Shown: piece after piece, positions 1 through 15,069 of the stretch | Position numbering within the stretch: position 1 is the first letter of the stretch | Layout: each line of letters starts with the position of its first letter | Assembly: GCA_013099195.1 (NCBI GenBank) | Contig: CP039999.1 | Location: 792,992-856,991, forward strand | From: Candidatus Saccharibacteria bacterium oral taxon 488 | Lineage (GTDB): Bacteria > Patescibacteriota > Saccharimonadia > Saccharimonadales > Saccharimonadaceae | Length of the DNA: 64,000 nt | Direction of reading: 5' to 3' | Translations under genes and position numbers: made by a program | Notes under the pieces: generated by a model | Seen by the model: the letters and a program-made list of their open reading frames with translations, nothing else | Database searches by the model: none | Told to the model about the DNA's origin: nothing

Positions 1-431
1 GCGGCCACCAACTGGGTAATCATTCGTGGTCGCACCCAGAGTTACCCAAGCTACCAGTTAACCAAATTGCCAGCGAAATCGACCGCACCAACGACGCCAT
101 TAAGCAAGCCACCGGCGTCACACCAACTGTTATGCGCCCGCCTTATGGTGCGGTCAACAGCGTCGTCTTGGAGCAGCTTCGCCTGCGCGGTATGTCGTCA
201 ATCTTATGGTCGGTCGACACCCGCGACTGGGCTGATCGCAATAGCAACATCGTCTGTTCGCGCGCCGTCGCTGGCGCCCACCCTGGAGCTATCATCTTGA
301 TGCACGACATTCACCAAACGTCAGTCGGTGCCGTGCCGTGTATCCTTAGCGCGCTGAAACAGCAGGGGTATTCGTTTGTGACGGTGCGGGGGCTACTTGG
401 CAATACCACACCGGGAGCTGGATATCCGTAG
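1..431 (+). CDS. Polysaccharide deacetylase (NodB domain), 3' part
   Basis: Only the last 142 codons are in the window; the reading frame is open from base 3 to the TAG at 429-431. The visible part has the NodB signature elements in order: a metal-binding HSWSHP segment (H-x3-H) a few residues in, RPPYG about residue 45, WSVDTRDW, and a C-terminal HDIH. These are the zinc ligands and active-site loops of carbohydrate esterase family 4, which remove N-acetyl groups from peptidoglycan or other amino-sugar polymers outside the cell. The N-terminal part, with the catalytic Asp and any signal peptide, lies outside the window. The family call is firm; the substrate is not known. Confidence 0.9.
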   Translation, partial: GHQLGNHSWSHPELPKLPVNQIASEIDRTNDAIKQATGVTPTVMRPPYGAVNSVVLEQLRLRGMSSILWSVDTRDWADRNSNIVCSRAVAGAHPGAIILMHDIHQTSVGAVPCILSALKQQGYSFVTVRGLLGNTTPGAGYP

Positions 432-473
432 AAAATTATAGCTGGGTGTTACGGCTGCTCGTTGCAGCGGCTA

Positions 474-701
474 TTATGCCTTATCTACCTCAAAAACCTT
501 ATATTTCGAAGTTGCGCCGCGCACTAATTTTACCTTTGACGACGCCACACCAAAATGCTTCGCCAGTAATTTTACCGCCGCCAGATTCGCCCGCCCTTCA
601 ATGGCTGGCGCCTTGGTGTAAATAGTCAGCGAACCATCATCACCAACCACGACTTCTTCGCGGTGACGAGAGTTGGGCTTGAGGTGGACGGAGATTTTCA
701 T
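474..701 (-). CDS. DUF167 (YggU / UPF0235) family protein
   Basis: A 75-residue protein with the DUF167 hallmarks: an N-terminal KISVHLKPNS strand, the central PAIEGRAN segment and the VRGATSKYK loop. The length is close to the usual 75-100 residues. Family members are small alpha/beta proteins of unknown biochemical role, often next to cell-division or YggT genes. Here it is convergent with the deacetylase and divergent from the XRE regulator. The ATG is preceded by a weak purine-rich site (GGTAGGA) about 8 bases away. No function can be assigned. Confidence 0.85.
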   Translation of the reverse strand: MKISVHLKPNSRHREEVVVGDDGSLTIYTKAPAIEGRANLAAVKLLAKHFGVASSKVKLVRGATSKYKVFEVDKA

Positions 702-872
702 GGTTAATATCCTACCGGCTTTATCATATTACCTTTCCTTTAGTCCTATTATACCTCCCTATGACAAACTTTGCGTATTGTATTACCCCATGATGCAATA
801 GGTAACGCAAAGTTGCTCGCCAAGACACTAAAATTACGCTATGCTATTAGAAAATAAATGAAAGGGCACCAA

Positions 873-1484
873 ATGATTTTTGCAAAAAAACTTAAACAAT
901 TACGTCAACAAGCCGATTGGTCACAAGAGCAACTAGCCGATCGACTCAACGTTACGCGACAAGCAGTTGCTAAATGGGAACGAGGTGCGGGCTTTCCAGA
1001 CATAGACAATATGCAAGCATTAGCAAAATTATTTAACACTAGCGTAGACGAGCTGCTCGACTACACACGAGCAGGATTAGCTTCGGCCATACGCGAACCA
1101 CTTGATCTTGATGCCTACCCGACAGATACGAAAGGATATTCAGCATCCGATCTGGCAGTTGCAGACAAATTTGCCGACGCCGATCACATTGAATCGCTAA
1201 ATCGCCACCGACGACTAACGTGGTGGCAAAAAATCATCGACTTTTTCGTAGGAGCTGGAACGCTTGATGTGGCTTTTTCCGGCGAGGCCATTGGACAACT
1301 TAAAGGCGATAGACGCTACTATCTGGTTGAAAAATCTGGTCGCTCATGGATCGTCGAAGTTACAAAGACATATATTGAACGACGAGAATTAGCCGAGACA
1401 TTCCCTCGCAAAGGATTGACGGTTGGTGATTATATGTATCGGCGAAGCGGGTTTGTTGTAGAGCCATCAAATAAACAACAATAG
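873..1484 (+). CDS. XRE-family transcriptional regulator
   Basis: The N-terminal 60 residues are a clear Cro/CI-type helix-turn-helix: KKLKQLRQQADWSQEQLADR, then VTRQAVAKWERG as the recognition region and a PDIDNMQALAKLFNTSVDELL tail. The remaining 140 residues form an unrecognised soluble domain with a Trp/Tyr-rich core. I prefer the ATG at 873 (203 aa) over the in-frame ATG at 858, because AAAGGG at 861-866 sits six bases before 873 and overlaps the first candidate. It faces the defence island across 12 bp (convergent with the res gene). It could be a local regulator or an orphan; its target is unknown. Confidence 0.85.
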   Translation: MIFAKKLKQLRQQADWSQEQLADRLNVTRQAVAKWERGAGFPDIDNMQALAKLFNTSVDELLDYTRAGLASAIREPLDLDAYPTDTKGYSASDLAVADKFADADHIESLNRHRRLTWWQKIIDFFVGAGTLDVAFSGEAIGQLKGDRRYYLVEKSGRSWIVEVTKTYIERRELAETFPRKGLTVGDYMYRRSGFVVEPSNKQQ

Positions 1485-1496
1485 ACATTCTCAGCA

Positions 1497-4244
1497 TTAG
1501 ATATCTCTGACCATAGTCAACGCTTGCCGCAAAATCCTCACTGGCGCCACGTATGGTACATCAATTTCCGCAAAATGCTGGCGGGCCGCAGTAATTTTAC
1601 CTCGTTCATTAGCGCTCAAGTGATTATCGTTAATATCATCCGACCCCTTCGTCTCGGCCACAAAGTAAATCCGCTCATCACCATCAAACGCCACTGCCCA
1701 ATCTGGATTATACTTGCCGACTGGCGTATCAATCTTAAACCAACCCGGTAGCTTGATATAAAACTTAACGTCAGCATTATCCTCTAGCGACTGCATGAAT
1801 TCTCGCTCAACTTCTGAATCAACCGCCACGTAATCGTAGATGGTTTTTGCCTGGTCTCCCACTGCAATTGCCCCGCTCTTCATCGCCGCATCATACAAGT
1901 ATGCCTGTAGCTCACCATTCTCAAACAACGTCATGTCATAATACTCGCCTGTCCTGTGATATTTAACGCCATCAACTACCAAACGCTGCTTCACCCGATT
2001 AATCGCCCGAGCTGTTTCATCAATCACCTGCTGTGGATTAATAGCTACCTGCGCAAACATCCCCGCTTGATCAAGCACTTCAAATATCACCCGGCGAGTC
2101 ATTTGTGTCTGACGCTGAATATCCGCTAATAAATTCGGCATCTTTACCTCAGCTTGGCGCACCGCATACGTGTTGAAACCAGTCTCGCGCACCATAAAGC
2201 CATTATCATTACCCATGGAATCAATCAGTGTTTTTGTCTCAGCGATATTGGGTTTACTAATAGTGACCTGCGCTAATTCACTGGCCGCCTCCGTCACTAA
2301 CTTGTCTGTATCAATCGCCACCCGATAAGTCGTTTTATGCTTAATCTTATCCCATAGCTCCTCAAATGCTGGGTCAAGCGCCCGTGATTTCTGAAACCTA
2401 ACAGGTCGCCGATCATCACGATTTTTGATTCGTCCACCGAAGCGAATGCCGGCCTCTTCCTCAATCTCCGTCTGAAGCTTGCGACTAAACTCTGCATAAC
2501 TTTCGTTAGCTACTACCGTTAGTATGTTGACGCTATCATCATACACTCGTTGCCCATCAATATTAACCGGCAGACGCAGTCCTCGCCCGATTTCTTGGCG
2601 CTTTTTCATCTGACTCGACGTTTCGTTAAGCGTGCAGATCTGAAATACATTAGGATTATCCCAGCCCTCGCGTAGTGCGGAGTGGCTAAAGATAAACCGT
2701 AGCGGCTCATTTATATCCAGCAGTCTTTCTTTATCCTTCATGATTAAGGTATATGCTGTATCATCGTCCTTCGTCCGTCCACCCTCACCCTTGGTGTCAC
2801 GAGAATCTTTCCATTGGCCATTCTTATCCGCCGCAAAATAGCCATCGTGCACCTCACTCGCCGACAAACCATCCATGACGCCAGCATATTTTGGTTTAGA
2901 CGCCACCTTGGCGTACGCCTCCTCAAACCATTTGGCAAATTTACCCTTACTGACACCATTCGTCGTATATTCACGATAGTTCATGACTTTATCAATAAAG
3001 AATAGGCTCAGCACTTTGACACTACTACCCAGTCGACGCTGTTTATCAAAATGATCATCAATTGTCAGTTCAATCTGCCGCTTGATAATATCATCATGCA
3101 GGCTTTCATCACGCTGACCAACATAAACTACCTTACCATTACTGAATTCGACGCAATCATCGCCGTGATTGATCGACTCGACATAGTAGCCGGCATAGGC
3201 TGAACGCCCCGTCTTCGCCTCTAAGTCATCGCCCGGAAAAGCCTTGATGATCTTGCGCTGCAAGCCATACTCATCACTCGCATCTACTTCAATTTTAGCA
3301 AACGAACGAGTCTTCGACTGGCGCTCTAGCGACAATACATTGATATACGCATCATTATAATTATCCTCACTCTGGACACTATGCACCTCGATCTTTTTGA
3401 CCAAGCCTTTATCATAGGCATCGACCGGAGTCAGCCGATATAGCAAATTATATAAGTGCTTGTGAGTAGCACTGTAGCGCAACGTGCACAGCGGATTAAG
3501 GCTAGTAATAGCATTCCGTCGTATGTCAGTCTCCATATTCTGCGGTTCGTCGAGAATAACTACCGGGTGGGTGGCTTTGATAAAGTCGAGCGGCCGACCA
3601 TAATCGCTCTGCCGATTCATCACATTCTGCGCCTTGGCGAAGCTATCAATAGTAATCACCATGATCTGCAAGGTATCGTTCGTCGCAAACTCACGAGCCT
3701 GACCGGTCTTCTTGCTGTCCCAGACGTAGTAGTCCATCTCTGGCTTGTTGTAGAGATCGGCGAAGTGCTCCCTGGTAATCGCTAAATTCTTCAGCACGCC
3801 TTCACGAATCGCCACGCTCGGCACCACGATTATAAACTTCTTCCAACCATAATGCTGGTGTAGCTCATGAATCGTCCGCAAGTACACATACGTTTTGCCC
3901 GTGCCGGTCTCCATCTCGATGGAGAAGTTCATGCCGTGTTTCAGAGATTTTTCGCCGATTTCTGGCGGAAAAGTCGCCGGAATGCTAAAGCCACCTTCTT
4001 TAGTCTCGCTTTTCTCGATACCATTCCTATCTTGGACTTTATGCATATTTTCGGCGATCTGCGTTGCATCCAACACCAAACTATTTCCCCTAGAAATCGT
4101 CGCTTCGAAGCTTGTCTGTCTACCCTGATCTATATGGTAATTCGCACCGTCACCACCTTTCGATTGCCCAGCGAAAATATCCACCACCGCCTGGATGGCG
4201 TCGAGTTGATACTGCTGATTAGAGTCAAATTTTAGTTTCATCAA
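1497..4244 (-). CDS. res: Type III restriction enzyme, Res subunit
   Basis: A 915-residue superfamily 2 helicase-nuclease. Walker A TGTGKT is at residues 113-118, a DEPQ motif II follows (VVILDEPQNM), then helicase motif VI (QEIGRGLRLP), and a C-terminal PD-(D/E)XK nuclease signature NPDWAV plus VAETKG. This is the ATP-dependent translocating and cleaving subunit of type III restriction, acting with Mod on unmethylated DNA. It is the last gene of a minus-strand group Fic-Mod-coiled coil-DUF3800-Res, whereas mod and res are usually adjacent. The first codon is TTG at 4244 or ATG at 4241; an AGGG lies 7-10 bases upstream. No interruption was seen, so it looks functional. Confidence 0.93.
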   Translation of the reverse strand: MMKLKFDSNQQYQLDAIQAVVDIFAGQSKGGDGANYHIDQGRQTSFEATISRGNSLVLDATQIAENMHKVQDRNGIEKSETKEGGFSIPATFPPEIGEKSLKHGMNFSIEMETGTGKTYVYLRTIHELHQHYGWKKFIIVVPSVAIREGVLKNLAITREHFADLYNKPEMDYYVWDSKKTGQAREFATNDTLQIMVITIDSFAKAQNVMNRQSDYGRPLDFIKATHPVVILDEPQNMETDIRRNAITSLNPLCTLRYSATHKHLYNLLYRLTPVDAYDKGLVKKIEVHSVQSEDNYNDAYINVLSLERQSKTRSFAKIEVDASDEYGLQRKIIKAFPGDDLEAKTGRSAYAGYYVESINHGDDCVEFSNGKVVYVGQRDESLHDDIIKRQIELTIDDHFDKQRRLGSSVKVLSLFFIDKVMNYREYTTNGVSKGKFAKWFEEAYAKVASKPKYAGVMDGLSASEVHDGYFAADKNGQWKDSRDTKGEGGRTKDDDTAYTLIMKDKERLLDINEPLRFIFSHSALREGWDNPNVFQICTLNETSSQMKKRQEIGRGLRLPVNIDGQRVYDDSVNILTVVANESYAEFSRKLQTEIEEEAGIRFGGRIKNRDDRRPVRFQKSRALDPAFEELWDKIKHKTTYRVAIDTDKLVTEAASELAQVTISKPNIAETKTLIDSMGNDNGFMVRETGFNTYAVRQAEVKMPNLLADIQRQTQMTRRVIFEVLDQAGMFAQVAINPQQVIDETARAINRVKQRLVVDGVKYHRTGEYYDMTLFENGELQAYLYDAAMKSGAIAVGDQAKTIYDYVAVDSEVEREFMQSLEDNADVKFYIKLPGWFKIDTPVGKYNPDWAVAFDGDERIYFVAETKGSDDINDNHLSANERGKITAARQHFAEIDVPYVAPVRILRQALTMVRDI

Positions 4245-4423
4245 TAAATAACCCTTTTGAATTAAGAATATTACATATGTTTGACAATAAACAATTCTTC
4301 AAAGTATAATTTACATAGGGACAATTTTGTTTCACGAAGACCTGTATCATTTGAAAGTTGGCTTCACGCCATCGAAGGGTATCCTTCTCAGAATGATATG
4401 GGTCTTTTTGAAATACAGAGCAC
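4245..4423. other. Intergenic stretch between DUF3800 and res
   Basis: AT-rich spacer of about 180 bp. A 95-codon minus-strand reading frame overlaps it (4225-4512), but it has no recognisable domain, starts inside the DUF3800 gene and runs into res. No hairpin with a T-run was seen, so res may be read from the upstream promoter or from an unrecognised one here. Confidence 0.4.
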
Positions 4424-5257
4424 CTAGTCATTATTAACCACCCTGTTCTGCTTTGTAAGAGGGTTTTTCGGTCCATAATAATTCTGATAGTTCTCATATT
4501 TTGTCGTGTCATACAAATCCAAAATTAACGGGATTCTATCTTTCACAGCATCATAAAAACGCGTTTCTCCTTTTTCAAAAACTCGCTGCACCGTCCATAA
4601 AATATAATCTGTTATTGCCAGCACTGGCTCACTACTATACCTCTGGACATTAAATTTTATATCGGCCCTGTACTTATATCGACGTGTCTTTGCATGACGT
4701 TCATGCGCCTGCGATAGAGCAATTTCTAGATTATTATTTTTCGTACTACTTCCACGCTCCGCAATGTTAATAACTAACTTTTCGTAATTTCCCTTATCTT
4801 TCAACAGATGAGAAAGCAAGTCAGCATAAAATTCTCTTTCCTGAGAGTGGTGTTTATTGACAAACCTCGTAAGCCGTTTACGCCCCACCACCATCTGTAC
4901 AGAGAAATCTATACTCTCAAGCAAGAACATAAGGAACTTATACCGAAGCTCTGGCGGATCATCCTTGGCGTGCAAATAAAAACCGCCTTGATCTATGCGC
5001 TTTTTCACGCTAGGTATTTCGTTAAAATACGGATCACTCTCTATTTCTTTGCAAAATACCCTAATAAAACCACACACCTGCTCTAAATCTTGTTTGATAT
5101 GCGCCATACCTAATATAAATGTTCTAGAAATACCGTTGCTACCCAAAGGAGCTGGTGCTTTCCCCTTCAAGAAAAACGTCATGTCGCCCGCCTCATCAAT
5201 GAAACGGTGATAGGTATATGGCTTTAGGTTGTTTCTCTTTTTGTTAGATTCAATCAT
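4424..5257 (-). CDS. DUF3800 protein, 277 aa
   Basis: The N-terminal FIDEAGD motif after a Tyr/His-rich strand, and a mid-protein RNase H-like pattern with acidic and Arg residues, match DUF3800, a family predicted to have an RNase H-like nuclease fold and found often in mobile or defence regions. Its position between the coiled-coil membrane protein and res makes it a possible accessory nuclease of the type III system; that role is inferred. About 180 bp separate its stop from res, and 140 bp separate it from the gene upstream. Base composition is more AT-rich than in mod and res, which hints that it was inserted between them. Confidence 0.8.
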   Translation of the reverse strand: MIESNKKRNNLKPYTYHRFIDEAGDMTFFLKGKAPAPLGSNGISRTFILGMAHIKQDLEQVCGFIRVFCKEIESDPYFNEIPSVKKRIDQGGFYLHAKDDPPELRYKFLMFLLESIDFSVQMVVGRKRLTRFVNKHHSQEREFYADLLSHLLKDKGNYEKLVINIAERGSSTKNNNLEIALSQAHERHAKTRRYKYRADIKFNVQRYSSEPVLAITDYILWTVQRVFEKGETRFYDAVKDRIPLILDLYDTTKYENYQNYYGPKNPLTKQNRVVNND

Positions 5258-5398
5258 AACACCACTTCCACAGAATTCGGAAATCCCGAATTTTCTACAT
5301 AGCTATTCGTAATTTCCGAACAACTGACTATTTCGTTAGTTGCCTGGTTTTTCCGGACAACTGAACAACTATCTCCATTTACAATAAACAACTTCATC

Positions 5399-6744
5399 CT
5401 ATTCACCTATTTCCTGTTTTGCAAGATCTTTTAAGTTATCAACCTCTTGGTGAATCTTTCCTACGGTTTGGTTTGTTTCGGCCGTTAATTTCAATATTTT
5501 ATTACCTACACCGAAAGACCATCGCTCCTTTTTAGTCTCTATTGGCTCTTGATATATAGAGTTAAATGTACAAATTGCAAAATCGGTAATCTTTTTATCT
5601 CTATTTTGGTCAGATAATCCTTCAGTAGAACGTAGAAGAGTATTTAGCGATGTCTCGATAGAGTAGGTGCTTATAGCTTTGAATGCGTATTTCTCATACA
5701 AACGCCTTTCCTGAGAGTATTGATTCAACGAATATATAAAAGCGAAGGTTGTAGGTGTCAATATACTGAAACGCAACAAAAGCGCACTTAGGTTTACATC
5801 AAGAGAATGTTTCATGTTGTATCCCATTGGCACAATGAAGCATACAGCTAAAATTACAGTCGCTATAAGGGATATCGAAGATATTATCATCCATACTACA
5901 AACATCTTTCTAATCTGATTACGCCTCTCAACAAAGTAGTTGGCATGCGCACCTTTAGTTCCTATGTCAAATATTTCTTGTATTTTCTTTTCAAGCTCAG
6001 CACTTTCATCATATTTATTCTGGATTTTTTGAGTTGTATTGTCCGCATTGCCTTTAAAATTCTCAATCTCCTTGATGTATTCGGCTGCATTATCACGAAA
6101 AATACGAATTTCTTTGTACACAGTTTCTGCATTAGATTTAACAGCGACAATGTCGGATTTTAATTTAGTTGCTTGATCCAATATCGCCTGAAGGCCTGTT
6201 TCCTCGTCTGTAATTTTATTGTTGAGTTCGGTAAACTCAGTATATGCGGTCTCCATTTCTTCAATGCTCGACCGAACACTATTTAGGGATTCAGTGATTT
6301 TTTGAAGTTGTGCATCGGCGTTCACTTTTGATGCACTAATATTACCTTCCAATTCTTGTGCGGACTCCAATATCGCCTGAAGGCCTGTTTCCTCGTCTGT
6401 AATTTTATTGTTGAGTTCGGTAAACTCAGTATATGCGGTCTCCATTTCTTCAATGCTCGACCGAACACTATTTAGGGATTCAGTGATTTTTTGAAGTTGT
6501 GCATCGGCGTTCACTTTTGATGCACTAATATTACCTTCCAATTCTTGTGCGGACTCCAATATCGCCTGAAGGCCTGTTTCCTCGTCTGTAATTTTATTGT
6601 TGAGTTCGGTAGTTTGCTTTAGATACTCTTCAATTTGGACTTTTATATTTTTATATCATCGTGAGCTTTCTGAATGACATCTATCTTTGCTCGAGACACC
6701 ATCAAAACCTCATTCAATTTTTTGCCGTAGTCACGTGTATTCAT
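5399..6744 (-). pseudogene. Coiled-coil two-TM membrane protein, frameshifted
   Basis: The gene starts at ATG 6744, overlapping the mod stop codon as ATGA. It reads MNTRDYGKKLNEVLMV and on to a TAA after codon 33. Reading resumes one frame over, YKNIKVQIEEYLKQTTELNN, to the stop at 5399. Adding one A to the A5 run at 6648-6652 would restore a single 448-residue protein; the span of 1346 bp is one base short of a whole number of codons. The product would be a long coiled coil with a perfect tandem 63-residue repeat, then two hydrophobic helices (FVVWMIISSISLIATVILAV and a second around LLLRFSILTPTTFAFIY), then a cytosolic tail. I do not recognise the family. It may be a phase-variable gene, a pseudogene or a single-base assembly error. 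Its place between mod and res suggests a membrane component of the defence operon. Confidence 0.75.
6181..6611. repeat. Tandem 189-bp coding repeat, two full copies plus part
   Basis: Unit starts at 6181, 6370 and 6559 give a period of exactly 189 bp (63 codons). The two complete units look identical base for base, and the third continues for about 53 bp. The repeat is in frame and codes for the coiled-coil segment starting TELNNKITDEETGLQAIL. Perfect identity points to a very recent duplication or ongoing copy-number change. Confidence 0.95.
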
Positions 6745-8564
6745 CACACCACCTCCACCTCAACACCTTGCCGTTCGGCTTGCAAGAGCAGGTTTACTTT
6801 TAGATTTATGTCGTCACCGAAGGATCGGTCGAGGAGGATGATGGATGAAGGTTTGGTGGCGAGGATGGCTGTAAATAGCTCCTCTGTTATGGAGTGCGCC
6901 AAACAAATAGCCAGCTTCTCGGAAGGGATAAAGCAGAAGTTATCGTGCTGCTCAATCTTCGCCAATGGTGAGATGCCTCGCTTGAGCAGGAGCTCGGTCA
7001 GCAGGTCATCATCAGTTGTACCCTCCTCTAGCGGGTCAAGGTTAGCAAGTGCCTGCTGGCGAATCTCCTCTGGGTCAGAAACTAGCTCGTTCCACTGCTT
7101 GAAGTTGCTATCATCCACCCGATATGCCCGAAAGCCAAGGTCAAGCGGAGTGTCACGAGAGGCGAGCTTGTCCGCCTGGTCAGTACTGATCTTGGCGCCC
7201 GCCCGACGGATGCGCTCACGAGCAATGTCTGCGATGGTGCGGTAGCCAGCTTTATACGCCTCCGACTTCTCGTCAGTCAGCTCAGGCAGCTGCACACAAA
7301 TCCAACGACGATTGCCACCGTCTTCGGCGTTAAGCTCAGCAACAGCATGAGCGGTTGTACCCGAGCCAGAGAAAAAGTCGAGGATGATATCGTTGTTTTT
7401 ACTCGATGTTGATAGTTTTAATAAGTGATTTATCAAAGAGACTGGTTTTGGGTTATCGAAAAATGAACCATCCATAATATTATCTACTTCAGCCTGTCCC
7501 GACTGGGTTGATCCGTGGTCCAGAAGTAAATTCGGATTGGCCGATGAAGTGTCCGTATCTTCGTGGGAATATATCTTTAGTTTTATTATTCCATCTTTAA
7601 GTATAAACCTATGGTTCGATTCAAGCTCACGCGCTTTCGCTTCACCAATCTGCCACCTCTTGCCTGGGCGGGGTGTTTGTCCTAGAATTTCAAACTTCAT
7701 AGTCTCACGGTCGTAACCACCGGTACTTTTCTTCTCTATTATGGCCGTTCTATAACTACCCTCGTCATCACTATACGGATAACTTCTGTTGTCTTTTGAG
7801 AATATGCGCTGATTAAGCTTTGCTACTTCACTTCTTGCATAAACCAGCATATATTCAGTCAGTGCACTTATTTGCGACCCTGAAACATTCGTTGAAGTTC
7901 CCTTTTTTCTCCAAATCAACTGCGCTACAAAATTCTCCTCCCCGAATATCTCATTCATCACCAGACGGAGGTTGTGGACTTCGTTGTCGTCGATCGAGAC
8001 GAAGATGACGCCGTCTTGGCGGAGCAGGTTACGTGCCAGGAAGAGGCGTGGATACATCATATTCAGCCAGTTGCTGTGCTTATGCCCGCCGGTATTGGTA
8101 CGCAGACCGTCATCCCGCACAACGTTACCCTCATCATCAGTGATGCCCGCCTCTGCCTCGTAGCTACGGCGTGTCTGCTTGAAGTCGTCATTGTAGATGA
8201 AATCATTGCCAGTGTTGTAGGGCGGATCGATATAGATCATCTTAACCTTGCCGTAATACGCCTTGTGCAAGATCTTCAGCGCCGCCAGATTGTCGCCCTC
8301 GATAAACATATTGCCCGTCGTATCCCAATCGACAGAATTCGCCCGGTCGGGGTGGAGCGTCTGGACGGTCTTCTCCTGGATAGTGGTGAAGACGTCGCTC
8401 TTACCCTTCCAGCCGAGCCCGTAGCGCTCACCCAAATCAACCGCCTCGCCCAGGGTCGCCTGGAGCTTCTGCCAGTCGATCTTGCCTTCGGTGACTACCT
8501 CGGGGAAGAGCTGCTGGAGTTTGTCAATTTGTTGTTGATGTATGTTATCGTTGTAGCCGTTCAT
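6744..8564 (-). CDS. mod: Type III modification methyltransferase, Mod subunit
   Basis: A 606-residue N6-adenine DNA methyltransferase of the beta class. It has DPPYNTGNDF (motif IV, catalytic DPPY) at residues 113-122 and the SAM-binding DFFSGSGTTAHAV near residue 395, with the variable target-recognition region between them, the order expected of type III Mod. The length is normal. Mod alone methylates one strand of its asymmetric site and guides Res. The gene follows the Fic gene by 12 bp, and its TGA overlaps the ATG of the coiled-coil gene, so those genes should be translated together. The recognition sequence cannot be read from the protein by eye. Confidence 0.95.
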   Translation of the reverse strand: MNGYNDNIHQQQIDKLQQLFPEVVTEGKIDWQKLQATLGEAVDLGERYGLGWKGKSDVFTTIQEKTVQTLHPDRANSVDWDTTGNMFIEGDNLAALKILHKAYYGKVKMIYIDPPYNTGNDFIYNDDFKQTRRSYEAEAGITDDEGNVVRDDGLRTNTGGHKHSNWLNMMYPRLFLARNLLRQDGVIFVSIDDNEVHNLRLVMNEIFGEENFVAQLIWRKKGTSTNVSGSQISALTEYMLVYARSEVAKLNQRIFSKDNRSYPYSDDEGSYRTAIIEKKSTGGYDRETMKFEILGQTPRPGKRWQIGEAKARELESNHRFILKDGIIKLKIYSHEDTDTSSANPNLLLDHGSTQSGQAEVDNIMDGSFFDNPKPVSLINHLLKLSTSSKNNDIILDFFSGSGTTAHAVAELNAEDGGNRRWICVQLPELTDEKSEAYKAGYRTIADIARERIRRAGAKISTDQADKLASRDTPLDLGFRAYRVDDSNFKQWNELVSDPEEIRQQALANLDPLEEGTTDDDLLTELLLKRGISPLAKIEQHDNFCFIPSEKLAICLAHSITEELFTAILATKPSSIILLDRSFGDDINLKVNLLLQAERQGVEVEVV

Positions 8565-8576
8565 CGTTTTTTCTCT

Positions 8577-9734
8577 TTATTCTGTTGCTTCATTTTTTAC
8601 TACTAATAAACCATTTCTATCCATAGCCAACAACACATCTCTTAATAAATAGTTATTAGCAAACCTCATAACGTACTTCTTTTGGTAGTCAGGATGAACC
8701 ATGAGCAATCCTTTGTCTCTCATATTCGTCAAAACACGAGACGTCTGCACCGCAGCAGAGGCGGTTGGTCCAAATAGGTGTCTTACGTCTTGTGCTTGAA
8801 TTAGGTCTTTTTGCATGGCTATCTTTAAAATCTCATGCTCTTCTGCAGATATAAATTGACTATCAAGGGCGCTTTTTAATGCTGGCTCTATTATATTTGG
8901 CACAGCATAATTACGATCTAATAGTTTATTCACCCTGACCATCTCACTAGCTATGCCCCGTGCGACATATAGACACCAATCCTCTAATGCTTCTTCCTTG
9001 CCAGAGTCTGCTGCAGCCAATTTATTATAGTATTCTTGACGATCCATACAAAAAATAGCCGAAGGATTTAAAATAGTCCGCATAGTTTTGTTGATAAATT
9101 TAGCCTTAATAAGCATCGCATACGTGACAAGCCTTGCCGTTCTACCGTTTCCATTATCAAATGGGTGTATTGCGGCTAGTCGATGGTGTGCAAGAGCAAT
9201 TTTGATAATATCCATTTTGTTATCATTATCATCAGCAATATAGTCGCATAACTCCTGAATAAGCCGGGGTATCTCTATATGATTTGGCGGCTCATGATCG
9301 CTTTTTTTAATATGTACTGAGCAACTTCGCCAATCTCCAGGCCACTTACTACCATCGTGCTTTAAATCAGTAACAACTATTTTCTGAACTTCACGAATAA
9401 AGGAAGGAGTAATTTGTTGACTGTCATCTCCATCAAAAGTCTCTTCAATAAAATCTATCGCCTTCCTGATGTTGCGAAGCTCTTGAAGGTTTTCGTCGCT
9501 GGGCTTTTCATCATTACTCAATGAATCCATGGCGGCACTAACCACCGTTGTACGATTACCTTCAATTCGAGCAGACGCGACACTTTCTAATATGTACATA
9601 ATCTCTCTCAAATCAAAGAATAGCCATGGCGGAGTCGTGCCCCCTAAATGGGTATAGCGAATTTTCTCCAAATTAAATAGTTCACTCACCAATTCTGAGT
9701 TAAATGATGGGTTGATAGATTTAAGAGGATTCAT
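8577..9734 (-). CDS. Fic-domain AMPylase-like protein
   Basis: A 385-residue protein with a complete Fic motif HPFDNGNGRTAR at residues 190-201, including the catalytic His. The N-terminal SARIEGN (residues 54-60) fits the inhibitory (S/T)-x3-E-(G/N) motif of class II Fic enzymes, in which an internal helix keeps the site closed. The C-terminal third (about residues 290-385) looks like a winged helix, common in regulatory Fic proteins. Fic enzymes transfer AMP or another nucleotide part to a target protein hydroxyl. It is the first gene of the type III operon, 12 bp ahead of mod. A TATAAT at 9741-9746 is six bases from the ATG, suggesting a leaderless mRNA. The target is unknown; restriction subunits or the translation machinery are possibilities. 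Confidence 0.92.
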   Translation of the reverse strand: MNPLKSINPSFNSELVSELFNLEKIRYTHLGGTTPPWLFFDLREIMYILESVASARIEGNRTTVVSAAMDSLSNDEKPSDENLQELRNIRKAIDFIEETFDGDDSQQITPSFIREVQKIVVTDLKHDGSKWPGDWRSCSVHIKKSDHEPPNHIEIPRLIQELCDYIADDNDNKMDIIKIALAHHRLAAIHPFDNGNGRTARLVTYAMLIKAKFINKTMRTILNPSAIFCMDRQEYYNKLAAADSGKEEALEDWCLYVARGIASEMVRVNKLLDRNYAVPNIIEPALKSALDSQFISAEEHEILKIAMQKDLIQAQDVRHLFGPTASAAVQTSRVLTNMRDKGLLMVHPDYQKKYVMRFANNYLLRDVLLAMDRNGLLVVKNEATE

Positions 9735-9740
9735 ACCTGC

Positions 9741-9746
9741 ATTATA
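9741..9746 (-). promoter_or_regulatory. -10 box of Fic-mod operon (leaderless type)
   Basis: TATAAT on the minus strand ends six bases before the ATG at 9734, so transcription should start at or next to the start codon. No Shine-Dalgarno site fits in the gap. Confidence 0.65.
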
Positions 9747-9854
9747 TATGTTTGTTAAATTTCAGTCAACACTTTTTAACATTTTTCTCTCATATTAATC
9801 TGTTATATTCCATAGTCTGTTAATTTATTTCTTAACATTTTGTTATATAGTTAG

Positions 9855-10517
9855 TTACTGCTCATCCTTTTTATAGATAATGCTTACATAGTCAGTTTTC
9901 GTAACAATAATATGATCATTAAGCGTAATACCGAGCAATTTTCCCGCTTCTGCTAGCCTATTCGTGACATCTTTATCAGCCTGACTCGCCTCCAAACTCC
10001 CGCTCGGATGATTATGCGCCACGATGATGCTGGCCGCGCGGTCGGCGATGGCGTCGGCGAAGACCTCGCGCGGGTGTACTAGGCTGGCAGTCAGTGTGCC
10101 GATAGTCACTACCCGCTTGGCGATCAAACGATTCGCACCATCCAGCGTCAGGCAAACAAAGTATTCCTGCTTTTTGTCGCGAATGTCGACCAGCAGCTCG
10201 ACGACTTTTTCTGGGCTGTCAATGATTGGCTGGTCGCTATCCAGCAAATACCGCCGCGCCAGCTCCAAACTCGCCAGAATCACCGGAATTTTCGCATCAC
10301 CCAAGCCAACTACGCCATGCAGATCATCATACGAAACATCGCCGCCTTTTTGACGCACAATTTTCAGCACCTCGCGCGCAATTTTACCGACATCCGCCCG
10401 AGCATTGCCGCTGCCGATAATCGCCATCAACAATTCCAAGTCGCTCAGCCGCGCCGTACCATAGCGCGCCAATTTCTCGCGGGGACGATCCAACGGATGA
10501 CGGTCAGAGATTCTCAT
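9855..10517 (-). CDS. radC: RadC / JAB-domain protein
   Basis: A 220-residue RadC family protein. The N-terminal third has helix-hairpin-helix character (LARYGTARLSDLELLMAI; GVVGLGDAKIPVILASLELA), and the C-terminal half is a JAB/MPN metalloprotease-like fold with the metal motif AHNHPSGSLEASQADKD and an upstream Glu in PREVFADA. RadC was named as a DNA repair protein, but its real role is unsettled; homologues cluster with anti-defence and mobile genes. It sits between the DUF262 nuclease and Fic genes. TATACT six bases before the ATG indicates its own leaderless transcript. Confidence 0.93.
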   Translation of the reverse strand: MRISDRHPLDRPREKLARYGTARLSDLELLMAIIGSGNARADVGKIAREVLKIVRQKGGDVSYDDLHGVVGLGDAKIPVILASLELARRYLLDSDQPIIDSPEKVVELLVDIRDKKQEYFVCLTLDGANRLIAKRVVTIGTLTASLVHPREVFADAIADRAASIIVAHNHPSGSLEASQADKDVTNRLAEAGKLLGITLNDHIIVTKTDYVSIIYKKDEQ

Positions 10518-10523
10518 ATAGAC

Positions 10524-10529
10524 AGTATA
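10524..10529 (-). promoter_or_regulatory. -10 box of radC (leaderless type)
   Basis: TATACT, preceded by TGC (an extended -10), lies six bases before the radC ATG at 10517. Confidence 0.65.
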
Positions 10530-10572
10530 GCAAGCACCCCAACTAAGCTAAAGTGTCAGACCGCACACATAC

Positions 10573-12678
10573 CTACTGTTCAATCGGCTTTGTCAATTCA
10601 ACATTGATAGAGATTTTATCAACATTAAACATCTCCGCCAGTTCGCGCATGAGCCGTATTTTTTGATTCGTATTTGTTGCTACGTCAACCACAAGCCCTG
10701 TGTCGTGAATCTTTACGGAATTAAAAAATCTTTTAGAATCATTACTAATCCAATTTTTCGTCTTTTCGCTATTCATAATCTGATCAGTAAAATCAGGGTT
10801 CTCGTCGTACAGATACTCACAATAGACGCCAAGAATTTGCGACCAGCTCGTTACTGGATAAGAATCGTCACCGATATAGAATATTTTTACCGCTGCGCCT
10901 GTAAAATCAATATCGTCGAAAATATTAACTTTCGTGTCAAGTATTGGCGGTTCAAACGTACTTGTTGGCAGCGGCCAAATTTTAATTATTTTATCAATCC
11001 ACCACTGCTGACGTTCCAGTATAGTCTTCTCATTCCAGGTACTATATTTAGCAACAGTCCTATTAATCTTAAGCGGGCTATCAGCAAACCCGTCTGGCAT
11101 ATCACGCTTTTCCCGGAAACTCTTGTTTGAATATTCAGAGTTATATCCCGTCAATGTCAAATTCGCTAGCCCATGCAAATATATGCCATGAATTTCATCG
11201 GCACGGTCACCGAGCTCATCCCGCCAAGTATTGGTCATGGTTTGCGGCATAATATGTTCAATCGTTAGGTGTAGCTCTTTGTTATTAATCTGTTTCAGCA
11301 ATGACACGTCCTTAGACTCATCGTCAACCGCAGTTAACAAATACATGACATTGGAAGAGCGCTGATTATAGGTAAAGTTTGCTTTTATCGCTGTTTCTAT
11401 TTCATTATCTCGGGGCAATCGGATCTGCCTGTTTTTCGAAAGTACGGTATATTTCAGCACTTCAAGATATACGGCATTGTCCTGCTCAGCAATTGACAAT
11501 ATACTTCTGTGTAATCCGGCGAAATATTTACCTAAGCCTGTTGTCGATAAGTTGATAACGATACGCCGCGAAAAGTAGACGCGTAACACATCAAACACCT
11601 CAGCAATTTCATCATCAGACAAATGTCCATCTTGCCAATATTTCATGACTGATACAGCATACGGAAAGAATGCTTCAATTCTCAGATAGCGCATTGTAAA
11701 TGCCACCGAACTAAGTCTTGCAAATTCATTATTTTCGTCTATGCCAAACTTTAGAAAGCGATAATATTTTAGTATTCTCAAAATCTCGCCGTAAAATTCG
11801 TCAAGCGATTCATATGACTGATCATCAGAAATATTATTAGAAAAAGCTTTTTTAAACTCTGGATACACCTTATCAGTATTCACGACCGATTGGTTCTTGG
11901 CAATCAAATAGACACGGAAGAAGTCGGTGATGTCATCACGCTGCGGATCGGTTAGGTACGTTTCAATATACTGCCAATAACTAGTCAAAACATAATCTTG
12001 TTTTTCTGAAGTGCGCAACATTAACGAGAAGTTTCGGATTTTGTCGCCATCTGTCAATGGCTTGCCAGTTGAGTTAATACTTTCAAAAACTTTTTGTGGA
12101 TTATCGTCATCTTTGTCTAGAACAATCGTGACAATCTCGAAGTCATCAAGCGTATCAATATATTGTTCTAAATGATCACGATTTCTAAAGTAGTCGTAGA
12201 ATTGGAGGTAGGATTTATACAAATTACTTTTCTTCTCATATTCTGTCAGTTCTGCCTGGCTAAATATTTTCTCAAATATTTTATTGTCGGTAGTTACCGC
12301 CCGAAGCTTAATCCGATTTTCCTCCGAATCATATTGTTTTGCATATCTGTTATATAAATATTCGTCCTTGATTTGCTCGGCTACCAGTCTAAGCTTTTCA
12401 GGTGACTCTAACGCTAAATGGTAAATTGCAGTGATCATCAGCAAAACTGTCGTCGCACGCTGCTGGCCATCGATAATAACGCTTCGGTTACCATCGTTTA
12501 TATATACGATACTGCCAAAATAGTGTTTCTTATCTCCACGCTTCACCTCTTCAAGGTCGTCTAAAAACATTTGGACATTATCGGCTGTCCAAGAATAAGG
12601 GCGTTGAAAATTAGGTATCTCAAAGAATTTGTTTGGCGTATATAAGAATAATTTAATGTTAGTTTGCAGCGCTTTCAT
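10573..12678 (-). CDS. DUF262/DUF1524 GmrSD-like nuclease
   Basis: A 701-residue protein with an N-terminal DUF262 (ParB/sulfiredoxin-like) domain: NFQRPYSWT near residue 25 and IIDGQQRATT near residue 70. A helical middle follows, then a DUF1524 HNH-type nuclease with LTIEHIMPQT and HGLANLTLTGYN. This is the domain order of single-chain GmrSD/type IV restriction enzymes, which use NTP to cut modified phage DNA. An extra C-terminal segment of about 120 residues is unassigned. It begins the defence island upstream of radC. TATAAT (12686-12691) lies seven bases from the ATG. Function is by family; the modified base it may detect is unknown. Confidence 0.9.
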   Translation of the reverse strand: MKALQTNIKLFLYTPNKFFEIPNFQRPYSWTADNVQMFLDDLEEVKRGDKKHYFGSIVYINDGNRSVIIDGQQRATTVLLMITAIYHLALESPEKLRLVAEQIKDEYLYNRYAKQYDSEENRIKLRAVTTDNKIFEKIFSQAELTEYEKKSNLYKSYLQFYDYFRNRDHLEQYIDTLDDFEIVTIVLDKDDDNPQKVFESINSTGKPLTDGDKIRNFSLMLRTSEKQDYVLTSYWQYIETYLTDPQRDDITDFFRVYLIAKNQSVVNTDKVYPEFKKAFSNNISDDQSYESLDEFYGEILRILKYYRFLKFGIDENNEFARLSSVAFTMRYLRIEAFFPYAVSVMKYWQDGHLSDDEIAEVFDVLRVYFSRRIVINLSTTGLGKYFAGLHRSILSIAEQDNAVYLEVLKYTVLSKNRQIRLPRDNEIETAIKANFTYNQRSSNVMYLLTAVDDESKDVSLLKQINNKELHLTIEHIMPQTMTNTWRDELGDRADEIHGIYLHGLANLTLTGYNSEYSNKSFREKRDMPDGFADSPLKINRTVAKYSTWNEKTILERQQWWIDKIIKIWPLPTSTFEPPILDTKVNIFDDIDFTGAAVKIFYIGDDSYPVTSWSQILGVYCEYLYDENPDFTDQIMNSEKTKNWISNDSKRFFNSVKIHDTGLVVDVATNTNQKIRLMRELAEMFNVDKISINVELTKPIEQ

Positions 12679-12685
12679 ATATCTA

Positions 12686-12691
12686 ATTATA
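12686..12691 (-). promoter_or_regulatory. -10 box of DUF262 gene (leaderless type)
   Basis: TATAAT on the minus strand, seven bases before the ATG at 12678. Confidence 0.6.
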
Positions 12692-12726
12692 CTACTTCAT
12701 TGCTGCTTCTTTAGGCGATGTGTTTA

Positions 12727-15069
12727 CTAAACTTTCACTGACTGTCGGCCGCGCACCACGCACATCGCCACTACAAACATGCCAACCAGCCGCGATACTA
12801 ATGAGCTGTCGTCTGCACTTGATTGAGTTGTTGTCGTGAATTCTTCCTCCGGATTGAGCTGGCTGTCGTCCGGCCATAGGCCAGGGGATTGACAGCTTTT
12901 TACGACCAAAACATTGTCACTCACGGCACTCGTTTCGCTATTATAACCGTAACTGTCAACCGCGCTGTCAACCGCCAAATCATTCTGTTCGTCCACTTCA
13001 GATTCTACCGCCTCAGACACTTCAGTAGCAGTAAGTTCTTCTTGCTCTTCAGACAAATCGACGACTGATTCTATGCTGCTAGTATCCATAGTTATAGTTT
13101 CAACTTCAGCATCCAGGCGCAACAAATCACTTTTTTCCGATGTTTTTACAGTCATATTGTCACGCTCCTCGCGAGGCATGATGCGCTCCTCTAAAATTTC
13201 CACTGCTGGCTCATCCAGCTCGAAATCAGGTATTAGCTCAATAGCCGGCGAGGCAGGAATAACTATCTGCCCCTCTGGCTCATAATCATTGGTGATTTTA
13301 GGAACTGATACCGCCTTAGAATTGTCCAATTGCCCCGCGGAATCCATATCAACACCAATCTCGTCGTCTACAGAGAGTTTCAAATCATCGACTTCTTCAC
13401 GCACCGTAGTTGCCTCCATTGGCAGCGCAATCGTCACCACTTCAGCCGAAGATACTCCCGGCTCTACTACTGGCGCTTGTTGTTCGACAAAAAACACCAT
13501 ATCCTCCTCAGCCCAAGCTTCGTTGTCCTCGCCATATTCAACGATATCTTGAGCTGATAATGACACAATCACCGGCTGATCAGGCTGCTCTTTCGCTGGA
13601 ATTAATGCGGCCGCATTAACCATCTTTTCAGTAGATGTCTCGTTTGTTTCGTATTCCGCCGACACATTAACGGCGTCCTCTTGCTCCTGATATGGCGACA
13701 CATTAGATGCGGTTGGAATTACATGCTTGGGCTGTTCGACATCAACGCCATCGGTCGATTCGACAAAATTATTATAATCCGGCGCCGCATCTATACTAAT
13801 CTCGCTAGGTTGAGCGTCTGTTGATGCTTTCGTGCCAGAATTATCAATTGGTCCCGTGGTCGCAGATTCATCCACCTTTACCGCCTCAAACTGCGCTGCC
13901 AAGTGCTGCTGCTCGGAAACTGGCGTAGTACTTTCATCATTTTCTGCTGCTCGGCTCGGCTCAGAATTGGCCGATTCTGACCCTGTTATAACAAAAACTT
14001 TTTCTTTTTGGCGTTCAATTGATGGTGTTTTTACGCTTGACGGCGCAGTAGTTTCATCGCCATCATATGTATTTTCCACAACACTAGCAGCAACCTTATC
14101 CTCACTAGCCGTAGGGTAAACAGTTTCATTTTCCAGCGGATTGCAACTCTCATCACCAGTTTGAGTATCCTCGCTTACCCCCGGCGATGACGGCACAGTT
14201 TTCGTTTGCGTTTGGGTTGGTATGTCTGGAGATTGGAATACCGGCTGCTGGTTTTCTTTGTCTACTGCGTCAGAGATAATAGCAGAAGTCTGCTGTTTTA
14301 TTTCTATCGACGGACGATTTTCCTCTGTTGGTTCGGTAAACTGTTCCTTGCCAGATGTATTGACAGGCACTTCGCTAGCACTTTCTGGCCGAGATTCCCC
14401 GACATCTTTAATATCGTCAGCGATAGTTTCTGGAGCCATTTTTAATCCAAAGAATGGCGCTTCTGCCGCTTCAGTATCCATATCTTCGCCCGAAACTTCG
14501 ACTGGCTTGCTAGTCGAAGCTTTACTTTCTTGTTCCTGCGGCGTGATCTTCTCAGTTGGCCCATCTGGCTTGTCGGCGCTAGTTTCAACCACTCTTGGAC
14601 CATCAGCAACTGGCAGTTCCTCACCATCAAAGTCGTCAGGTAAGGGCTGTGCCCAGACAATCTCGCCCGGCGCGTCGTCTTCTCGGAGTAATTGCTCTAG
14701 GGTGCTTAGCTGTTCCCCGGATTGAAGTTCAGTATTGCCTGCCATCATTGCGGCTTGACGCTCTTCACAAAATTGTCTGAGACCGCAGCCAATACAAGCA
14801 ATCGTCCCATACTTTTGACACTGCTCGGGATTGACTGGTGCTGATGTTTCTTTTGATTCGGGTTTGCTGTTTGTAACAGTATTGAGTTCTGCCTCACCGC
14901 TGGCCACCGCTACCAAATCAAACTGCTCAACACTATCAGCCACCGTTTCGCCAATGCCAGACGAAAAATCCTCACTGCTAGCACCGTCTCTTAGCGACGA
15001 AAATACGTCAAAATTATCACCGTCAATTCCTGTCGGTGATACTTCTGCTGTACTCGTCGCCCCAATCAT
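12727..15069 (-). CDS. Acidic protein with Cys4 cluster and C-terminal hydrophobic segment
   Basis: A 780-residue protein very rich in Glu, Asp, Ser, Thr and Val, so probably largely disordered. Two features break this. Cys84, Cys92, Cys95 and Cys101 form a C-x7-C-x2-C-x5-C cluster that could hold zinc or an iron-sulfur centre. A final hydrophobic stretch, LVGMFVVAMCVV followed by RGRQSVKV, looks like a C-terminal membrane anchor with a basic tail. I recognise no family. Its ATG overlaps the stop of the FNR-like reductase by four bases (ATGA), making it the last gene of the nrdD-nrdG-reductase operon. A role in electron delivery or membrane tethering is only inferred from context and the cysteines. 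Confidence 0.75.
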   Translation of the reverse strand: MIGATSTAEVSPTGIDGDNFDVFSSLRDGASSEDFSSGIGETVADSVEQFDLVAVASGEAELNTVTNSKPESKETSAPVNPEQCQKYGTIACIGCGLRQFCEERQAAMMAGNTELQSGEQLSTLEQLLREDDAPGEIVWAQPLPDDFDGEELPVADGPRVVETSADKPDGPTEKITPQEQESKASTSKPVEVSGEDMDTEAAEAPFFGLKMAPETIADDIKDVGESRPESASEVPVNTSGKEQFTEPTEENRPSIEIKQQTSAIISDAVDKENQQPVFQSPDIPTQTQTKTVPSSPGVSEDTQTGDESCNPLENETVYPTASEDKVAASVVENTYDGDETTAPSSVKTPSIERQKEKVFVITGSESANSEPSRAAENDESTTPVSEQQHLAAQFEAVKVDESATTGPIDNSGTKASTDAQPSEISIDAAPDYNNFVESTDGVDVEQPKHVIPTASNVSPYQEQEDAVNVSAEYETNETSTEKMVNAAALIPAKEQPDQPVIVSLSAQDIVEYGEDNEAWAEEDMVFFVEQQAPVVEPGVSSAEVVTIALPMEATTVREEVDDLKLSVDDEIGVDMDSAGQLDNSKAVSVPKITNDYEPEGQIVIPASPAIELIPDFELDEPAVEILEERIMPREERDNMTVKTSEKSDLLRLDAEVETITMDTSSIESVVDLSEEQEELTATEVSEAVESEVDEQNDLAVDSAVDSYGYNSETSAVSDNVLVVKSCQSPGLWPDDSQLNPEEEFTTTTQSSADDSSLVSRLVGMFVVAMCVVRGRQSVKV

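Follow-up and report, generated by a model that had tools for sequence, protein, structure and literature searches.

This report concerns an operon built around a type III restriction-modification (R-M) system in a Candidatus Saccharibacteria bacterium (oral taxon 488), and in particular a conserved structured RNA at the 3' end of one of its genes, a member of the DUF3800 family. The operon lies in a stretch of 64,000 nucleotides (assembly GCA_013099195.1, contig CP039999.1, positions 792,992 to 856,991 of the forward strand), which is called the window and whose own numbering is used for all its positions. Other loci, genomes and protein relatives are cited by our L, G and P numbers. The operon comprises the following features:

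1497..4241, minus strand: res, type III restriction subunit of 914 aa (PADLOC REase_III 1.5e-283; PF19778 1.4e-33; EcoP15I Res E 4.9e-53; helicase motifs and PD-ExK)
4324..4419, minus strand: structured RNA, two outer helices around two hairpins, starting 5 bases past the DUF3800 stop (covariance models R1 and R2; pair counts; no Rfam 15 family)
4424..5257, minus strand: DUF3800 gene, 277 aa, predicted RNase H-fold nuclease (PF12686 21.5 bits, cut-off 21; structure model; RNase HII match)
5399..6744, minus strand: gene for a coiled-coil membrane protein (CC), its start overlapping the mod stop, its frame broken after 33 codons, main open reading frame (ORF) 5399-6559; 92 relatives
6744..8564, minus strand: mod, type III methyltransferase of 606 aa (PF01555 2.1e-35; PADLOC MTase_III 1.7e-202; EcoP15I Mod E 5e-64; DPPY and FSGSG)
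8577..9734, minus strand: Fic gene, 385 aa, 12 bp before mod (PF02661 2.9e-18; motifs; solved relative 7xux, E 1.8e-79)

An original prediction, made from the letters of the window, had read five minus-strand genes in the order Fic, mod, CC, DUF3800 and res. This order is borne out at the positions of Fic, mod, DUF3800 and res given above, and the predicted 12 bp between Fic and mod and the AT-richness of the accessory genes are likewise found, the G+C content being 39.1% in Fic, 36.9% in CC and 39.1% in DUF3800 versus 50.0% in mod and 47.0% in res. Judged by sequence and motifs, Mod and Res are type III subunits: the former has the DPPY and FxGxG motifs and kinship to EcoP15I Mod, the latter the helicase motifs, a PD-(D/E)XK end and kinship to EcoP15I Res. 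CC and DUF3800 do not overlap and are 141 bp apart, and another 182 bp lie between DUF3800 and res. This second interval contains the conserved RNA, the most telling partner of DUF3800, which the original prediction had missed.

The first lead to the RNA was a blastn search with the 182-bp spacer, which returned short matches just after the DUF3800 gene of the distant locus L061 and in L110. In a plain MAFFT alignment of the window, L039, L061 and L110, 91.3% of the cells pair and 7 of the 20 pairs change on both sides, the structure having been picked by eye from these same four sequences. Seven such pairs are reached in 3 of 500 shuffles and the paired percentage in none, while slid versions of the structure pair 28-54%. 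When 19 places are aligned, by fitting to the structure, 90.7% of the cells are paired, 17 of the 20 pairs show changes on both sides, and the covariation score is 0.702, a value reached by none of 500 shuffles, which give 0.167; slid versions are 32-43% paired. The three pairs that never vary make up a GGC/GCC hairpin, and the fixed unpaired and loop letters follow the pattern GGC-nnGnn-GCC, then UUC. No Rfam 15 match was obtained at E up to 1 over 1-15000; over 4200-4460 the search gave only RsaH, on the opposite strand and with 14.9 bits versus the 50 needed. Between the window and L039 the spacer differs at 6 of its 182 positions, in a recombination-like pattern, so that this low divergence is by itself no proof of constraint and the case for the RNA rests on the distant loci.

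Two neighboring candidates were examined and dropped. A 68-codon ORF at 4225-4431 had been considered as a sixth gene, as it has three database relatives with 90, 78 and 61% identity. It was set aside because the RNA lies within it, the six window-L039 spacer differences read as amino-acid changes in this frame, and conservation among the relatives is highest over the RNA; we now think that the RNA accounts for the frame, a small protein being the less likely reading. The other candidate was an RNA upstream of DUF3800, in the following stretch:

5258..5363, minus strand: sequence preceding DUF3800, common to the window and L039 (6 differences in 106 positions), with a RhuM-like scrap

The leader folds slightly better than its shuffled versions, with z -2.17 and 2 of 200 folding equally well. 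The idea was abandoned because the RhuM-like scrap lies inside (it matches L042 over 36 nt, E 4e-6, and the RhuM gene of L041 over 27 nt, E 0.002) and because only two sequences were compared, whose differences are unevenly spread as after recombination.

Two covariance models were used to locate further copies of the spacer RNA, R1 built from the four loci and R2 from 12 sequences. Over 62 sources R1 found its four seeds and seven more places at E 1.5e-10 to 0.004 (L063, L066, L065, L064, L067, L062 and L059), all seven at the 3' end of a DUF3800 gene and on its strand, in loci that had been fetched for DUF3800; the only further match was L103 with E 1.1. The match starts, in ten loci, between 31 bases before and 5 bases after the last base of the DUF3800 stop codon. 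Among 16 hand-chosen genomes R1 matched nine of the ten that carry DUF3800 (all but G543, locus L068) and additionally G852 (L110). R2 was then run blind on 168 Bacteroidota genomes, at E ≤ 0.001 and with stricter filters that lose weak matches. Six genomes matched, five of them at a DUF3800 3' end (L167, L168, L169, L171 and L172) and the sixth, L170, after a gene resembling the PemK/MazF-like gene that precedes the RNA in L110. At L165, a second place in G466, the RNA is located upstream of another DUF3800 gene. The 19 places thus divide into 15 at a DUF3800 3' end on the same strand, one upstream of a DUF3800 gene and three with no DUF3800 in the flank. As would be expected of an RNA antitoxin, the RNA is adjacent to and conserved with a putative toxin gene in the 15 places of the first kind. 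The association with the DUF3800 3' end is well supported: the RNA is a conserved structure tied to these gene ends across two phyla, with or without R-M genes nearby. No blastn match to it was found in phages or plasmids. A strict pattern of the two hairpins also picked out 27 stretches in viral contigs, which are regarded as unrelated, since their flanks differ, profiles reveal no DUF3800 there and Rfam gives no match of this kind; the hairpin pattern alone is therefore no proof, whereas the structure model is. At L110:10530-13306 the RNA is found between two Abi_2 loci, after the PemK-like gene and without DUF3800, and the situation at L170 is similar. L163:1501-1596 matches strongly (75.5 bits), and the 1.5 kb examined to either side of it contains no DUF3800.

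One of the Bacteroidota places reproduces the arrangement of the window. The region of L171, examined as L173, belongs to genome G721, which is also among the Bacteroidota genomes that match the window Mod. It holds Mod (E 1.7e-51), a DUF3800 gene that shares a single base with mod, the RNA at 4201-4309 and a Res-like helicase from 4338 (best E 5.9e-17), so that the order mod, DUF3800, RNA, res recurs in another phylum with strongly diverged genes. The position directly before res, common to the window and L173, would also suit a cis-acting element, for instance one that shields the end of the mRNA or holds back translation of the following gene, here res, without working with the DUF3800 protein; a passage of PMC12707154 describes delayed translation of EcoP15I res after entry into a new cell. 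We consider such a role unlikely. In 12 of the 15 DUF3800-end places neither Mod nor Res is matched in the flank (about 1.5 kb on each side or less), the RNA of L165 stands upstream of a DUF3800 gene, and the invariant letters exceed what a plain terminator would call for.

The RNase H-like character predicted for the DUF3800 protein is upheld by its structure model (predicted local distance difference test score, pLDDT, 91), whose best solved match is RNase HII with E 1.5e-5 and template modeling (TM) scores of 0.38-0.44. DUF3800 of the window kind occurs in 2 of 295 genomes of the family; we found no relative in plasmids and a single partial one in viral contigs (L060). PADLOC labels the window protein DUF3800_VII (E 8e-13), which we take to stand for retron type VII, and no reverse transcriptase is present among the ten scanned proteins of 474-15069. 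At L048:12264-12977 a distant DUF3800 gene lies two genes upstream of a type III mod and has no RNA match.

The original prediction regarded adjacency of mod and res as the normal state, which fails for the relatives of this Mod. The window Mod matches 27 of the 295 family genomes at E ≤ 1e-30, and 28 loci were examined in these 27 genomes. Eight could not be scored (L052, and L119-L125 with a distant Mod and no Res match). The other 20 Saccharibacteria loci show mod-to-res order on one strand, and 16 of them have genes in between, including L001 and L057 with a broken mod, a proportion that applies to relatives of this Mod and not to type III systems in general. In the remaining four (L050, L051, L054 and L055) mod and res follow each other with gaps of 2-5 bp. 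Spacing around the inserted genes, here called cargo, is tight: distances of ≤5 bp, overlaps included, separate mod from the first cargo gene in 13 of 14 measured loci and the last cargo gene from res in 12 of 14. The G+C content of the cargo is below that of both mod and res in 13 of 14, the exception being L056. A Pfam scan of 20 proteins from these loci (17 encoded between mod and res, 3 upstream of mod) left three without a family and gave, between mod and res, AAA_15, Virulence_RhuM, DUF4145, DUF6119, SLFN_AlbA_2, Bro-N, HEPN_RiboL-PSP, SduA_C and KilA-N; a PDDEXK_9 match in L049 is under its cut-off. The SduA_C match belongs to a Shedu nuclease gene at L046:5729-6715.

The slot between mod and res is similarly filled in Bacteroidota, where 59 of 247 genomes match Mod. 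Of the best 21 rows 20 were fetched, a second row of G774 being excluded; 15 of these loci are in mod-to-res order, 14 with genes between and one without (L113), the order is the reverse in L115 and L117, and three could not be scored. Ten cargo proteins scanned here comprise SLFN_AlbA_2, AAA_21 and AAA_15, DUF4276, Fic, a SoFic-like protein and YhcG, with three lacking a family. The slot is thus filled with different genes in different relatives. Such mixed cargo might simply indicate a tolerated landing place in a defence island, where independent genes use the transcription of the operon with no tie to restriction, and the apparent transposase in the Bacteroidota slot of L103 would fit, as would the occurrence of the DUF3800-RNA module and of the Fic type of the window in places without this Mod. 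We nevertheless hold this to be unlikely, since the spacing is tight on both sides, nucleases and ATPases recur among the cargo, and both phyla have the slot filled.

Relatives of CC, DUF3800 and Fic do stand beside type III systems elsewhere (L001, L039, L043 and L173), as the original prediction required for CC and DUF3800. They do not, however, travel as a unit, and CC and DUF3800 were seen together in no further locus: L039 has the order Fic (of another subfamily), Mod, AAA_15, DUF3800, Res, while L001 has Mod, CC, another gene and Res, without Fic. A joint action of Fic, DUF3800 and the membrane coil in one dedicated system, as envisaged in the original prediction and as their proximity and shared AT-richness in the window might suggest, is highly improbable given that CC occurs without DUF3800 (L001) and DUF3800 without CC (L039, L173), that the Fic type of the window lies beside this Mod in only 1 of 16 carrier genomes, and that CC is out of frame in the window.

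The interpretation we favor, with about an even chance of being right, is that of a type III operon whose mod-res space is a slot for exchangeable second-line genes, DUF3800 and the RNA forming a protein-RNA module in which the RNase H-fold nuclease is probably controlled by the RNA. The slot of the window copy would hold CC and the DUF3800 nuclease with its own structured RNA, with Fic placed upstream of mod. The RNA would bind the DUF3800 protein and either hold the predicted nuclease in check or aim it. Phage infection that defeats restriction or stops host transcription might then lead to release of the nuclease, and the freed DUF3800 would cut nucleic acid as a second line. CC would be a separate and optional tether or sensor, with a coil length that shifts in nine-heptad steps. 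It is the mechanism, that is control of the nuclease by its RNA and the second-line use, that we infer.

Several points weigh against this interpretation. The RNA matches of L110, L163 and L170 have no DUF3800 in the examined flank, and the RNA is matched neither in L068 nor at the distant DUF3800 of L048. Mod and Res surround only 3 of the 15 DUF3800-end RNAs (window, L039 and L173), and in L061 the DUF3800-RNA pair follows a type IIG restriction enzyme (5.2e-157), so the module is not specific to type III systems; the remaining short flanks, about 1.5 kb on each side or less, were compared with Mod, Res and the other window proteins only. The TM-scores of the RNase HII match are modest. Fitting to the structure went into two of the alignments, A6 and A8, which hence favor it, and not into A5, and the E-values of the RNA models are rough owing to their short calibration.

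The coiled-coil gene was predicted to overlap mod by ATGA and to encode two transmembrane segments, and both claims stand in part. Its start codon does lie over the mod stop, but that frame runs for just 33 codons, and the coil is encoded in a different one (ORF 5399-6559). A relative, P0124, has the same starting residues and a whole frame, which indicates a break or a misassembly in the window copy. Among the 92 relatives, three (P0146, P0169 and P0175) share the inner start codon of the window ORF and may be broken genes or contig ends. In P0124 the first membrane segment is strong (mean hydropathy 2.79), the second marginal (1.72), and residues 1-200 show a sharp hydrophobic period of 3.5. 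The coil of the window contains an internal repeat:

6177..6611, minus strand: 189-bp repeat in 2.3 perfect copies, 63 codons or nine heptads each (self-comparison, heptad period, unit comparison)

None of 5000 shuffles matches the power of the 63-residue unit at period 3.5. The 92 relatives cluster at lengths of 322-323 (8), 385-387 (57) and 445-450 (12), with 15 elsewhere. By pattern search two adjacent units were found in eight relatives; they are identical within the protein in six (P0121, P0122, P0123, P0136, P0178 and P0201) and 51 and 57% identical in P0194 and P0197. Between lineages the units share 46 to 87% identity in the pairs printed, P0121 to P0123 representing one lineage with 95-98%. 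The simplest reading of these sequences would be separate recent duplications of the unit in four lineages plus the window, and an assembly error is possible behind single duplications. The specificity subunits of the type I system EcoR124 have length-variable coils, and CC resembles them as a coil in an R-M locus that varies by whole repeat units, but it is a membrane protein and no specificity subunit, and its step is 63 residues. Taken one step further, and tentatively, DUF3800 and its RNA may be an RNA-gated nuclease, one of the interchangeable mod-res modules, that is made together with the restriction enzyme and released when restriction fails, CC being a membrane tether whose reach is reset by nine-heptad blocks.

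CC was found in 1 of the 295 family genomes at E ≤ 1e-8 and has no relative in viral contigs. A distant relative in L003 adjoins a gene resembling type I specificity genes, and another, in L004, has no R-M family among its scanned neighbors. At L001:4816-11083 the frames of Mod, CC, the next gene and Res are all broken, which indicates decay of the operon in this relative. The gene that follows CC in L001 can be read as HEPN from the letters RHLLVH, taken for the HEPN motif, but this reading was rejected as it is unsupported by Pfam at E up to 10.

The Fic protein was predicted to be a nucleotide transferase. It belongs to the Fic family and carries the inhibitory motif [ST]xxxE[GN] of the class II type, SARIEG at residue 54, a class whose members are known by such motifs as transferases of adenosine monophosphate (AMP). 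The usual active site, HPFx[DE]GNGR, has Asp or Glu where the window protein, with HPFDNGNGR, has Asn, and owing to this replacement nucleotidyl transfer is uncertain; the same Asn is present in L043 and in the solved relative 7xux. Fic of the window type occurs in 16 of the 295 family genomes, beside this Mod in one (G090, locus L043) and about 27 kb from it in another (G161), while the remaining 14 have no Mod match. Other Fic genes directly precede mod in L039 and L041, lie three genes ahead of it in L047 and, by a motif read by eye, are also placed upstream of it in L055.

Toxins in R-M operons and noncoding RNAs near DUF3800 are kinds of association that are already known, and Weinberg and colleagues are reported to have described DUF3800 motifs of the Rfam type. 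AbiF with its noncoding RNA is an RNA-controlled toxin. As in AbiF-type systems, a predicted RNase gene here adjoins a structured RNA, and the RNA of L110 lies between Abi_2 genes; the main partner, however, is DUF3800. Mod and Res are alike by sequence and motifs to those of EcoP15I-type systems, but in the window their genes are parted by cargo and the RNA, with a Fic gene upstream. The coupling of toxins to R-M operons envisaged in the original prediction is a published idea: passages of PMC3710099 describe R-M neighborhoods with HEPN, DOC and RhuM genes and propose RNases that are restrained by R-M and released on its failure, and the case of PrrC in an R-M locus is restated in part of PMC12707154. 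Predicted second-line genes inside the operon are common to these loci and the window; the cases described in those passages are PrrC with EcoPrrI in a type Ic locus and HEPN-centered neighborhoods, while in the window DUF3800 and an RNA occupy the mod-res slot of a type III system. A section of PMC10910872 notes an RNase H-fold DUF3800 in Cas12a2 loci and states that DUF3800 had earlier been seen with putative noncoding RNAs, and DUF3800 is listed for VI-F and V-A2 loci in a section of PMC12669027. An RNase H-fold DUF3800 near an RNA is the shared element; compared with the loci in those sections, the operon has no CRISPR-Cas effector, and its RNA sits at the DUF3800 3' end and has no Rfam 15 match. 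Rfam searches, and literature searches of which none was aimed at the downstream RNA, yielded no description of this RNA, of its place at the DUF3800 3' end or of the module in a mod-res slot. DUF3800, a widespread nuclease family of unknown role, gains a defined RNA partner with a covariance-supported structure that is open to direct experiment. The type III operons of this branch emerge as vehicles for exchangeable candidate antiviral genes, in two phyla at least, and the CC coil, changing by nine heptads per step, lends itself to testing how length is tuned in a defence locus.

Directly upstream of the Fic gene (window 10573-12678) are RadC and a restriction gene of the GmrSD type (type IV), which places the operon in a defence island. 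DUF167 and RadC genes flank several such operons (window 474-701 and 9855-10517; L001, L038, L042, L043, L047, L048 and L057), which suggests that they occupy the same address in the chromosome. Near the operons of both the window (12727-15069) and L042 (L042:11302-13125) there are genes for long acidic proteins that match no Pfam family and whose cysteine-rich starts look alike by eye.

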